Source of the DNA: Paramecium tetraurelia
Lineage: Eukaryota; Ciliophora; Oligohymenophorea; Peniculida; Parameciidae
Length of the DNA: 64,000 bases
NCBI RefSeq assembly: GCF_000165425.1
Contig: NW_001798978.1
Location: 310,001 to 374,000, forward strand
Direction: 5' to 3'
Positions within the stretch are counted from its first letter, which is position 1, and every line of letters begins with the position of its first letter. The notes beneath the pieces were generated by a model. The model searched no databases. It was not told where the DNA came from and saw only the letters and a program-made list of their open reading frames with translations. This document shows, piece by piece, positions 1,080-7,933 of the stretch. Made by a program: the position numbers and the translations under genes.

Positions 1080-1162
1080 TATCTTTAGTATTTTATATTA
1101 TATAAATGATAATTTACAAATTGCTATATGCAATCGTAATATTCTCATTCCTATACATAATA

Positions 1163-2858
1163 ATGGCGTCGATTTGTGATTATCATGATTCCAACCAGAA
1201 GAAACTAAAAACACATTATGTGCCTCTGTTACAAACCTTTATGATGGATAATACTAACTATAGCAAATTCAAATAAGCATATAATGTATGATTGTAATGA
1301 TTGTAAGGAAAGTAGTCTGAACATGATAGAAGAGCCAAGTTATTGTATTGAATCGGACACATTGGTAAGGTATATATAAATATTCTAAGAAACTTTTGCA
1401 TCCAGATATCCTCTTGGAGGATAAATACATAGTGAGAGAGCTTGACAGAGGGAATCTACAAAGAGAAATAATAAAAAAGAGAATGTTCGATTCAATCTAG
1501 AATTTATCTCCTTTAAATAGTAAGCAATAATAATAGGATTAGAGCCTTAAACCAAATTTTAACACCGTGTACCTCCTTAACTTTCTTATTTTTACACTTA
1601 CAAACCGAGATTACAGGATAATTATTACTTAGGTCAAGGATTGGGATGCATGTTTTAAAAATTTAATCATATCCCAGGCTTGTATAGTTTAGCAAGTAAG
1701 AATAGTTTAATTTACAATTATGCAAAATATATATATGATATGAAGATGAGGAATGTGAGTAAGCAATGTATTTAAAATGCTTCTTATGTGCCGCATACTT
1801 TGAGATTGAATGTCAAATAGGAATGCTAATAATTCTTTAAGAAATTAACCCAATTACAAAATGATTATAAGAACAATGTTAAAATGTATAATGGTCCAGA
1901 ATATTTGTTAAAAACTGATGAGCATCGTGGAGAAGGAATCAGATTATTGTTTTAAAGTCAAATGGAAAATATCACTGAAGTGTATCAGAATGGAGAAAAG
2001 TGTGGGAACATTACAGAGAAGATAGTGGCACAAAAATATATAAATAGACCGTTCTTATATAAGGGACACAAAATAGAGTTTAGAATATATATATATTTGG
2101 CAAGCAGCAATCCATTATAATTGTACGTCTACAGGAGAGCATTGATAAAGAGATGTGCTAATGAATATAATCCATTGTCTGAATAAATACCTGCGCATAT
2201 TTGTAATACGGCAGTCACAGAGAAAACTCATAAAAATTAAACAAATCAGGGCGAGGGTGGTCTTGAATCAGAGGATGAAGAAATGTTTATTGATTGGAAT
2301 CTTGAAGGAATTGAAGAGTTACTTATTGAATAAGGAAGAATAAGTAAAAAACAAAGATGGCTTCAGGAATACCTGTATCCTAGGATTTACTCTAAAATTA
2401 TTCACACCATCAGGAGTGGACAATATAGTTTCTATAAAGATTCGAGGTTCTCAGAATTCTTGGCTATCGATTTCTTATTGGATTATGAACTAGATATCTG
2501 GTTATTAGAAATCAATTATAATCCATAAATTTTGAGTGTTACCCCTGATCGTATCAAAAGGAATTACAAAATGATTGAGGATACTGTGGAAATAGCATTT
2601 GCTTATTTGAAGTCCAAATACAAACGAATCAAAGAATTCATACAATAAGAATTATATAATTATAAGCACAGTGGTAATAGAATTAGATAGGTTGACTTCA
2701 AAAATAAATTCGGTAATAAGTTTAATCAATTGTTGGAGGATACTTCTATTGAATAAGAGTTCAGTATTTCACCTGATAATTTATACACTCACATAATTGA
2801 TGAGAGTAAGAGTGGTAAAGATAAATATTTCAATTTGATTGAGGAGGAATGTCTCTGA
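1163..2858 (+). CDS. Tubulin-tyrosine-ligase-like (TTLL) protein
   Basis: A 541-residue TTL-family amino-acid ligase, expected to add glutamate or glycine to tubulin tails on cilia or cortical microtubules. Recognisable parts are FQKFNHIPGLYSLASKNSL near the start of the domain, RPFLYKGHKIEFRIYIYLAS in the middle, and the ATP-grasp end FLAIDFLLDYELDIWLLEIN with the metal-binding E-x-N. Three introns (1286-1307, 1365-1389, 1520-1542; 22, 25 and 23 nt) are needed and together restore one frame. The start is the ATG at 1163, since it opens the frame leading into the first intron; an ATG at 1128 is in another frame. The acidic C-terminal tail is typical of TTLLs. The exact modification type cannot be told. 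Confidence 0.85.
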
Positions 2859-3003
2859 TATTTAATGTACATTAATATTTCCATTAAAATTAAATGATAT
2901 TATTCGCCTTACACACAATTCTTAGTACATCCTAATCAATCATCAGAATTATTAAGATAATTATTTTATATAAAGAGCTGATTAATAATCTTAACACATT
3001 TTA

Positions 3004-4862
3004 ATGTCTGAAATTTTGATGGAAATATTAGAAAAGGTGGATCAAGAAGAATGCACCAATGAATTACAAATAATCAGAGAATTTAACAATGTCATTCATC
3101 TTAAAGTATATTAGCAACATGTTTATAATTTCTGTGGTTATCATGCAACTTATAATATCTTACAATTACTTAACCATTTTCATTAAAAGAAGTGCTATCT
3201 ATATCATTCAGTTTCATTTTGGAAATATGTTAAGTTCGTCTAGAATTATCTAAAATTATACAGAACCAAACATAATATCAATCATGAACCTTGGAGTAAT
3301 CATGATATAGAGCACGGAGATTTTGAAAGATGTTATTTAAAGCCTTGGAAAGAACTTTATCATGATGTTATTGTGATATAGTATTAATTTGGAAGAATTG
3401 TCAATGGTTTGAAGGAGAAAGAATAGATAATACATTCTATCTAACAATTTATAAATTACGATTAAGTTGCTCCATTAATATAAGTTTATATGCTAGGGAT
3501 TACTTTTCATTGGGTTTCCTTTGTGGCTGTTAAAACTAAAAGTAAAACCAAATTCTATTTTATGGATTCAAAAAATATTGATTATTGTGAATGGAAGGAG
3601 TAAATCAAATACAAGAATACTTAAATGACATCAATAATTAAAGAATTAAGGTTGGTAGAATCCCTTATAAACCTTATGAGTTAGATATGTATTTATAGGG
3701 AATTCTTGATTTACAAGAATTAATCAAATTAATGGATTAAGCTTTAAGAGGCGAATTAAATTTTGCAGAATATTTGTGTGATTCCTCTACATTGATGTAT
3801 GTAAGACCTTTATATGAATTATTTGGAATGTCAGAATAACAATTTTTGGATGCAAACCCAGCAGAAATTAATTAAGACATAATTATCGTATGGGCTTAAG
3901 AATATAAAAACACGATATTTTCAGTCTTAAAGGAGGTATCTATTCTTTTTGATAGATCCAGAAAATTGTTAACTTAAGTTAATAAAATCACATCACATAT
4001 TCATTCTATAATAGGATAATAGGAGGTTCACGATCCTTTTTAATAGTGCCATGATGTAATTTAAGGGTTAGTAGAGAGTTTCAAATATGAGTGGAGTTAT
4101 CACCCAAAAGAAAAATAAATTAATTTATATTTCGAAGATGCTTCTAAATGTGAACACATCTCTTACATCACTTATGTAATGAAGGCGTATTTTAGAGAAT
4201 TTGTAACAAAATAGCATCACTATCATATCAGGATATAATTCTATGAAAATATATTTCATCCTCAAGGAGGTGGGTAACCTGATGACGTTGGTTCCATCAT
4301 TATTGGGGATAAGGAATTCATAATCAAAAATATGTATAATGATAGGCAGCATCAAGAGAGTTATGTGGATATCGAATTTTCTTAAGAAGCTTACGATCTT
4401 TTATTGGATTGTAGAACAAAAAAAACTCCTATTTTATAGAAAGTAAACCCAGAAGTAAGACTTATTCATTCCTAACTGCATTCTGCTGGACATTTATTAA
4501 AGGAGGAACTTATAAAGTTAGGCAAGGGATTGAAGTATATAAAGGGAATGCATTTTCAAAAAGAATCTTATATTCTATTAGAAGGGGAATTTGAAATTCC
4601 TATAGAATAAATACCAAGAGAGTTCTAGTTTTAGGATCTTTAGTTATCAATATGTTACTACACACACAATAAAGTATTTGAGATTTTAGGATATGTCCCT
4701 GAATTTGTGGAATTCTCTGAAATGGTTAGATGGATTAAACTAAGGGATTAAGACATCGGATTTCCTTGCTATGGAACACATACAGTAAAAGGGTTAGACA
4801 AAATTTAGATCACCAATATTCTGAAAAATAATAACTAATTTACAATATTTTATAATTTGTGA
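3004..4862 (+). CDS. Papain-fold cysteine-peptidase-like domain fused to AlaX tRNA-editing domain (one frame change)
   Basis: About 619 residues. The N-terminal half carries a candidate catalytic triad: Cys about 44 in NFCGYHATYN, His about 169 in ITFHWVSFVAVK and Asp about 188 in FYFMDSKN. This layout resembles Ulp1/Josephin-type (clan CA) peptidases, though no named family is certain. The C-terminal half is an AlaX/alanyl-tRNA-synthetase editing domain, with HPQGGGQPDDVG (about 4257-4292), the zinc motif HSAGH (HxxxH, about 4479) and CYGTH (CxxxH, about 4768). Such domains hydrolyse mischarged tRNA-Ala. The frame changes between about 3592 and 3603 with no room for an intron, consistent with one missing base. 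The next gene is a tandem relative without the AlaX half. Confidence 0.75.
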
Positions 4863-4944
4863 AAATAAAATCCCATTCGTATTCTTTTATAATCTGACGA
4901 GCAAATTCTACATTTAAAGTCAAATGTCAATATTAATAAATATA

Positions 4945-6299
4945 ATGGAAAACTTACATCCTGCTGAAGAAATCGTTAGAAACATTCTTGACAATATTGA
5001 ATAGCATCATAAGTTTATAGATTTTGTTAATACAAATTCTAATAAATCAAAATAAGGAGTCTGGATTAAGTAATATCATAAGGGAGAAGAAATTAAAGCT
5101 ATCACTTAAAATACAATAAGAATAGTAGAATTGCAAAATGAATATGTTCCAAATAAACAACAGTTCCATCATATTTTGGTTCATAAATAATTTGTTCCAA
5201 ATCTGTGTGGTTACCATGCTACCTATAACTTAATATAATGTGTTTAGAGTATCAAATATAAGTAAATGTGTAATTATATTCTCAGAATCTCACCTTAGTT
5301 TTATGATATAGCAGCATTTTGGTCCTATGTTCGTCGAACTTAAGATTTTCTAAAATTATACAGAGACTCACGAGGTTTAGATGGTTCAGTCTGGCCATGG
5401 AGGAATGACGATATAGAAAATGGAGACTTTGAAAGAACATACTTGAAATGCTGTTTAGAGTCTAAACCACTTTTTAAATAAACATTTTAAAATGAAGTCT
5501 TTGACGGAATTAAGTACTTTATTACTAATGATACTATATTCTATTAATATGGTAATATAGTTAATGGATACAATGAACGTTTGGCTTTATAAAAGTATAG
5601 TATTATTCATAATTTAGAAAATTCAATTTATTTTAAGAGTTTAGGCCTTCCTAGAGTGAAGAAATGATTTAAACATATATGCTTGGTGTAACCAACCATT
5701 GGATTTCCTTTGTTGCAGTTAAAAGCATTAGAGGAATTCAATTTATTGTAATGGACTCAAGGAATCGAGATTTCTTCCTGTGGAATTAATAATAAATCAG
5801 GGATTTTCTATAGTAAGATTAATTGGATCGTCCAAAAAGAGGATAGAAACCATTAAGTTAATTTTATTTGGATCTTTATGAATAAGGGATGAAGGATTTA
5901 CAATAATTGATCACTCTTTTAATATCATGGCTAACAGGGCAATCAAAATTAGAAGCCTATGTGAGTAACTAGAAAATATTAGTGTTTTTGAATCCTTTGG
6001 TTGAACTACTTGAAATCTCTTAGTAATAATATATCAATCTGAAATTTACTAATGAAAAAGCTGATGAACTCTATTAAATATTGGCTTTATGGTCAGATTA
6101 ATATCGGATAACAGTTCGAGAATACATAGGAAATGCAACATAAATAACTTAATTAAATAAAATACTATTTGTAAAGGCTTTGGAATTGACCAAGTGTGCA
6201 TTGGACTATCAAACAAAGAGAGGATTGTGGAATCAACAAAAGTAATCATCTCTGCATCGAATGCTAGAATATTTATAATTAGTTTATAAATCTTTATGA
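4945..6299 (+). CDS. Tandem paralogue: cysteine-peptidase-like protein without AlaX domain
   Basis: A 443-residue protein sharing the N-terminal domain of the gene just upstream. The shared blocks are CGYHATYN (Cys about 88), a W-x-x-x-D-I-E-x-GDFER block, GVTNHWISFVAVK and the following MDSRN. The candidate Cys-His-Asp triad is therefore intact here. After the domain comes an alpha-helical, Gln- and Leu-rich tail in place of the AlaX editing domain. One 23-nt intron at 5595-5617 joins the two frames. The start at 4945 is chosen, but an in-frame ATG at 4924 is possible. The gene begins about 80 bases after its relative on the same strand, which suggests local duplication. Substrate and role are unknown. 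Confidence 0.7.
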
Positions 6300-6924: not shown

Positions 6925-7933
6925 ATGAAGCTGATTTCTTTCTGTCTTATAGGTCTTGTTATGTCCAATAACATCATGCTCTAAACAGCAAATCATTCAG
7001 CCTTTTAGGAGGTGTTTGGATAATTTGCATAATCAAGCGATTTCGGAAATAAATTATTTGGAGAGCTTTCAGCATTCATTCAAAAAGGAGCAACACTCTA
7101 AGATTTGAATGACCATGTCGAAGAATTAAGAAAACATTTAGCCGATGATTAAGCAGAAGATGAAAAATATTTCAATGAATAACAATAATCTCTTGAATCT
7201 GGATTAGAAGGTTTAGTAAATGAAGTACAAGAATTAAAGGAAGCAGTGGACACAGCTGCAAAGAAGATTTCAGTTTTGAATCATTAACAATAGATCATTG
7301 ATAATCTCTTCTCTTAAGATTAAGCAGCATATTAAAAAAGACTTGCCAATTAAAATGTTATACTTGAAACAATATCTCTTTTGGTTGAGAGAGTTCACGC
7401 ACTTTCATTAGATGGTCATAGTCTTATTGAAATGGATAATCTTCTTGAGGAAATCAAATAATTAGGTAGAGGAAAACATGTAGAAGTCTTGGCTCAAGTA
7501 TTTTGCTAATCAAATGTAGATAACTGCTCATTTAGATACTGAATAAGCGGAAAAGGTTTTGAATCTTTTAGAAAGTCTTAACAAGGCAGTGCTCGCTAGT
7601 TTAGAAGCTGATGAAGCCAAAGAACAAGAGAATATTAGATTGTACAATAAATTGACTGGAGAGATAAATGCGTATTTATTTTTATGATGTAGTTCTCTTT
7701 CAGAAGCTTAGAGACACTACTAGCAATTGGAGGTTCATTTTGAACAAAAAGATTATGAACTTAGTGTCGGTAAGGAAGGTGTGAAAGATGTAGGACTAAA
7801 GTTATAAGATAGAAATGATTCTAGGTATTGTATATCATAATTAAATAGACAATTCATATTGGATAGAGTTTAGGAAGCACAACAATTATTAAATGATAAT
7901 ATAGATAGAATAGCAAGATGGTCATAAGAATGA
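6925..7933 (+). CDS. Secreted coiled-coil protein, trichocyst-matrix-protein-like
   Basis: A 321-residue protein with an N-terminal signal peptide (MKLISFCLIGLVMSNN) followed almost wholly by acidic, heptad-rich helix such as VNEVQELKEAVDTAAKKISV. Two introns (7498-7519, 22 nt; 7672-7692, 21 nt) restore the frame. Trichocyst matrix proteins of Paramecium are secretory, acidic, coiled-coil proteins of this size that crystallise in the trichocyst body and are discharged on exocytosis. That class fits, but no diagnostic proteolytic-processing motif was verified. It could be another luminal coiled-coil protein. It is the only clearly secreted product in this part of the window. Confidence 0.6.

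Follow-up and report, generated by a model that had tools for sequence, protein, structure and literature searches.

Two reading frames overlap between positions 3004 and 4862 of the DNA studied here (plus strand; gene 1), and the question raised by this locus is whether they belong to one gene that joins an N-terminal domain to an AlaX tRNA-editing module, and if so what that N-terminal domain is. The window, which is the whole 64,000 nucleotide stretch of Paramecium tetraurelia DNA that was analysed, corresponds to positions 310001-374000 of contig C25 (C25:310001-374000), and the genome searched comprised 69.07 Mb in 231 contigs. The window has an average G+C of ~28% and uses genetic code 6, with TAA and TAG encoding glutamine and TGA as the sole stop. 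Under this code, frame 1 of gene 1 is a single ORF running from a putative start at ATG 3004 to the TGA at 3793-3795, and it contains the candidate residues Cys (3133-3135), His (3508-3510) and Asp (3565-3567). The second ORF (3591-4862) has 423 codons, starts at ATG 3591, stops at the TGA at 4860-4862 and carries the motifs GGGQP (4266-4280), HSAGH (4479-4493) and CYGTH (4767-4781); all motif coordinates in gene 1 were derived by hand from the ORF translations. As the two ORFs overlap, the junction is without a spacer. A TGA-free run of at least 423 codons was found in one of 2000 first-order Markov sequences of matched composition.

AlaX proteins hydrolyse Ser- or Gly-tRNA-Ala via a zinc site, and AlaX modules guard against serine or glycine replacing alanine. 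Judged by sequence comparison, the C-terminal AlaX module of gene 1 (4116..4862, plus strand, AlaXM-type, ending at the TGA at 4860-4862) is real, and the claim that the module looks complete was borne out by a profile match, by the retained GGGQP, HxxxH and CxxxH motifs and by a stand-alone paralogue. The C-terminal half matched the NCBIfam AlaXM model (NF040865) with E=2.6e-9 over residues 195-415, at a score of 37.1 bits that lies far under the equivalog cut-off of 300. When the genome was searched with this half one other gene was recovered (E=2.3e-23), a stand-alone, 294-codon AlaX-like ORF on contig C108, and the reverse search from the C108 sequence returned the same pair. The local alignment of the two scored 319, against a mean of 37.6 (s.d. 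6.1, best 58) for 300 shuffles, and the AlaX homology begins at residue 176 of the C-half ORF. Gene 1 was not among the matches to Pfam tRNA_SAD, and the C108 paralogue scored 22.2 bits with that model, for which the cut-off is 24. Both lie outside the seven tRNA_SAD matches of the genome; by their motifs we take these seven loci to be three AlaRS and four ThrRS, the three AlaRS-like loci bearing editing motifs of their own. A PDB search with the C-terminal half gave 2e1b (E=0.088) and 9iuw (E=0.11), both named as alanyl-tRNA-synthetase-like fragments, and the predicted structure of the AlaX part (two rows) had a mean pLDDT of 39.9, which makes it a weak model for the geometry of the four zinc ligands.

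Viral contigs were scanned with a degenerate F-P-GGGQP pattern, which detected one AlaX gene, located at a contig end (L046). Positions 1-645 of this IMG/VR contig hold a clear stand-alone bacterial-type AlaX gene at its extreme end, and this is perhaps flanking host DNA; a follow-up scan gave no match beyond L046 itself. The L046 protein is also under the NF040865 equivalog cut-off (81.7 bits vs 300), and its HSAGH and FHPQGGGQP closely resemble those of the Paramecium proteins. FHPQGGGQP, LHSAGH and PC.GTH are identical in all three sequences (gene 1, C108 and L046), and gene 1 has CYGTH where the other two carry CGGTH. Prokaryote contigs scanned with the two Paramecium AlaX sequences gave 289 pattern matches, none of which was confirmed, and as the patterns lay mostly outside the AlaX motifs this negative says little.

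The N-terminal domain of gene 1 (3004..3606, plus strand, in the frame 1 ORF) has relatives in the same genome. A search with this half recovered five pieces in three genes, namely gene 1 itself, a tandem neighbour (gene 2) and a gene on contig C166, with N-domain identities to gene 1 of 42% for gene 2 and 39% for the C166 duplicate. The candidate residues Cys44, His169 and Asp188 are invariant in all three sequences, as are 70 of 200 gene 1 residues. None of the three N-domains matched any Pfam family, those of gene 1 and gene 2 were without a match in NCBIfam, the best match of the domain in PHROGs was only E 0.16, tblastn against phages returned nothing and no PDB entry was matched by the N-terminal half. 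Six PDB matches were obtained with a profile of the domain (four chains from the repeat proteins 6een and 4ozs, plus 4xe5; best E=0.011), and these were taken as chance; none is a peptidase. Contig scans for the domain gave 410 pattern matches in viruses and 105 in prokaryotes, none confirmed in either set, and as such scans rely on short patterns distant relatives may escape them. The predicted structure of the N-terminal half (three rows) had a mean pLDDT of 39.6 and is unusable as a model. The domain appears to be an orphan family with two stand-alone members in this genome, gene 2 and the C166 duplicate.

The sequence-only reading had proposed that this domain is a papain-fold cysteine peptidase with a Cys-His-Asp triad, and that the fusion could couple translation fidelity to proteolysis or to removal of a modifier. 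The three residues are indeed present in that order; the papain fold is backed by no search or model, since Pfam, NCBIfam, PHROGs and the PDB gave no peptidase match and the structure model has a pLDDT of ~40. What speaks for a peptidase is the order of the motifs, shared by three related sequences. No evidence was found that fidelity is coupled to proteolysis or to the removal of a modifier, and such a link of AlaX to proteolysis is speculation. That the domain is a thiol hydrolase confined to ciliates, with a ubiquitin-like modifier as its possible substrate, and is coupled to an active AlaX in a bifunctional protein is very improbable; if true, it would link mistranslation control to protein removal.

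Gene 2 (4945..6299, plus strand; 435 aa once spliced) is a tandem stand-alone relative of the N-terminal part of gene 1 and is without AlaX. Two introns were inferred in it: a 24 nt GTA..CAG segment at 5262..5285 (plus strand), whose C166 counterpart is 29 nt and GTA..TAG, and a 23 nt GTA..TAG segment at 5595..5617 (plus strand), with a 23 nt counterpart in C166. The C166 gene also splices to 435 aa with both inferred introns at the positions seen in gene 2, and the introns of the genes spliced here measure 23-29 nt. A genome search with the spliced gene 2 recovered six pieces, again from gene 1, gene 2 and the C166 gene only. Between gene 2 and the C166 duplicate dN is 0.18, dS is 1.86 (near saturation) and dN/dS is ~0.10, and both stand-alone orphan genes are under purifying selection. 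In both, the N-domain is followed in one protein by a helical region, 'helical' being our own reading of the sequence and not backed by a confident model. Compared with gene 2, gene 1 has a shorter N-terminus, is shorter inside the N-domain and contains neither of the gene 2 introns.

This layout was compared with the C-half ORF of gene 1. Its residues 6-133 scored 162 against the C-terminal part of gene 2 (300 shuffles: mean 34.7, s.d. 6.6, best 62), and the gene 2 genome search also recovered this middle region, which occupies 3606..3989 (plus strand) and is on these two grounds a homologue of the C-terminal part of gene 2. Residues 96-176 scored 39 against the last 90 of gene 2 (300 shuffles: mean 24.9, s.d. 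4.6, best 46), a score that gives no clear homology up to the end of gene 2. As the middle region sits in the AlaX-bearing frame, the orphan part of gene 1 extends past the frame change, and since gene 2 and its C166 duplicate encode N-domain and middle region together in a single protein, both halves of gene 1 would derive from one ORF to which AlaX was added at the end. With gene 2 homology extending to residue 133 and AlaX homology from 176, the fusion point falls between these two residues, and the parts seem to be joined end-to-end. An ancestral fusion of the orphan gene and AlaX is on this evidence highly probable. The fused gene had been described as a single coding unit, and of this description the adjoining halves and the ancestral fusion stand, but gene 1 is not one open frame, as it breaks at ~3601-3606. 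Each half has a stand-alone counterpart elsewhere in this genome, and one instance of the joined form was found; the titles and abstract openings of keyword-matched literature mentioned neither a peptidase-AlaX fusion nor a Paramecium AlaX gene.

The surrounding DNA is duplicated. The closest duplicate block found is on contig C128, with identities of 86.5% and 84.8% over 3151 and 1795 aligned columns. The equivalent there of C25:311124-316211 (window 1124-6211) has shrunk to ~60 bp at C128:457592-457654; the ~5.09 kb that is absent holds the TTL gene, gene 1 and most of gene 2, with a piece of the end of gene 2 retained, and the loss looks like one deletion. Contig C166 carries what looks like an older duplicate block, in which TTL and gene 2 are kept. 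The TTL gene, at window 1641-2858, belongs to the Tubulin-tyrosine ligase family (Pfam TTL, E=9e-31); it is present in the C166 block and missing from C128. Remnants of gene 1 were sought in C166:435900-437300 with tblastn, which gave 16 matches at E values up to 10 (best 0.82) that were taken as chance, and gene 1 was found in neither duplicated block. A cysteine-rich ORF lies on the plus strand at C166:436041-437054 (L010 1998-3011), between TTL and gene 2, in the place where gene 1 would be expected.

On C108 a matrix-protein-like gene follows the AlaX gene in the same orientation; on C25 a similar gene is found further downstream of gene 1, beyond gene 2 and a minus-strand ORF. This arrangement hints that the two AlaX loci share an old neighbourhood; the next match between C25 and C108 is not collinear, and the matrix-protein-like gene family is large. 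The copy in the window (6925-7700), which we take to be trichocyst-matrix-like, differs from its C128 counterpart by several small gaps whose lengths are not multiples of three, so one of the two copies may be decaying.

Our preferred reading, with a probability of roughly 0.6, is that gene 1 is a copy of the orphan gene joined C-terminally to an AlaXM-type tRNA-editing gene, which would most likely make it an AlaX-type trans-editing enzyme with an orphan module. The fused copy, made up of N-domain and helical tail, would be a diverged tandem duplicate of this ciliate gene, attached head-to-tail to the AlaXM-type gene. By analogy with AlaX proteins the AlaX part, if made, would hydrolyse mischarged Ser- or Gly-tRNA-Ala via its zinc site, and the orphan part would be an appended module, for binding or targeting, and not a proven protease. 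Whether the fusion is made as a single protein today is an even bet; function is argued against by the break in the frame, by the lack of gene 1 in the duplicated blocks and by the existence of each half in stand-alone form.

The net frame change from the frame of 3004 to that of 3591 was placed at ~3601..3606 (plus strand) by the comparison with gene 2, by intron enumeration and by codon usage. In the frame-wise comparison the homology of gene 1 to gene 2 switches frame at this point, and codon usage, scored in 60-nt blocks, roughly agrees: between 2980 and 3580 frame 1 comes out on top in 8 of 11, and between 3640 and 4780 the C-half frame leads in 16 of 20. An error of assembly, an unusual intron or splice event, or a young lesion in a gene intact until recently could each account for the change. 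Retention of germline sequence (an IES) at the break was ruled out on inspection, there being no extra stretch. GT..AG segments that join the frames were enumerated with donors at 3540-3719 and lengths of up to 110 nt; none of the 18 found is a 20-30 nt GTA..TAG intron. The two that are GTA..TAG measure 44 and 59 nt, and the three of 20-30 nt (3587-3615, GTG..AAG; 3655-3680, GTA..GAG; 3689-3717, GTA..AAG) would each cut out or skip residues aligned to gene 2. According to PMC5485702, ~98% of P. tetraurelia introns are within 20-30 nt; PMC9612004 gives 69% of annotated introns as GTA..TAG, so ~31% are otherwise, and PMC5663052 puts the share at 69.8-77.4% depending on class. These lengths and shares leave room for an unusual intron, and a functional single protein could be obtained if, for example, the 29 nt at 3587-3615 were removed, as this length is within the published range, its splice ends would be among the ~31% and the frames join without a stop. 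Its removal would, however, delete gene 2-aligned residues on both sides (the W...Q stretch and QI..(F/Y)L), and the alignment of these flanking residues indicates that the stretch was once coding; moreover both ends are off consensus and gene 2 has no intron there, which makes this explanation unlikely. If the locus instead held two distinct genes overlapping at their ends, one would encode an orphan protein that terminates with the TGA at 3793-3795 and the other a protein of 423 aa, helical region plus AlaX, from ATG 3591. Such a layout fits the start and stop codons that both ORFs possess, but the helical region and the N-domain are the same protein in gene 2 and C166, there is no spacer between the ORFs, and the frame 1 tail past ~3606 has by eye no counterpart in gene 2, so we consider it quite improbable.

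A larger share, still well short of even, goes to the possibility that gene 1 is a former fusion and now a young pseudogene, in which one frame change has parted the halves and neither is needed, given that stand-alone AlaX and orphan genes exist (and, by our own labels, three AlaRS-like loci with editing motifs). The break without a consensus intron and the absence of gene 1 from both related blocks would be expected of such a gene, and a further point in its favour comes from the assembly: between C25 and C128, at 305990-307549 and 308983-311105 (~1.6 and 2.1 kb), there is no gap of a length other than a multiple of three, and with none in ~3.6 kb the assembly is not full of such breaks. An indel rate for the assembly from the wider C25/C128 alignment (119 gaps, 93 of them not multiples of three) was discarded, as introns and spacers are too mixed in. 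Against decay, no in-frame TGA is present in the 423-codon C-half or in the N-half before the break, only a single break was seen across 1859 bases, and the residues of the AlaX motifs are kept. The odds given to these readings overlap, as the pseudogene and the unusual intron are the two ends of the question of whether the protein is made today.

For the preferred reading, the fusion of an orphan gene copy to an AlaXM-type gene, a motif-complete AlaX on a protein that is not a synthetase would be an unusual placement of an editing activity, and with stand-alone relatives of both halves in one genome the effect of the fusion is directly testable. If gene 1 is freshly broken, it would record a gene fusion followed by loss in a repeatedly duplicated genome.

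Among known systems, clan CA and ubiquitin-like-protein peptidases have a Cys before a helix, a His before a strand and an Asp after the next strand. The N-domain of gene 1 may share this order of Cys, His and Asp, as far as a model with a pLDDT of 39.6 indicates, but, unlike them, it matched no peptidase family by profile or by sequence. The AlaX-M enzymes (NF040865; P. horikoshii AlaX-M) have, like gene 1, a core of ~220 residues with GGGQP, HxxxH and CxxxH, to which gene 1 adds an orphan region of ~370 residues upstream. The apicomplexan tryptophanyl-tRNA synthetase (Pf-WRS) is described in PMC3680381 as having an N-terminal AlaX-like domain with its zinc-binding residues replaced. It resembles gene 1 in being an alveolate case of an AlaX-like module fused to another protein, whereas in gene 1 the AlaX module is C-terminal, its partner is an orphan domain and not a synthetase, and the zinc residues are kept.
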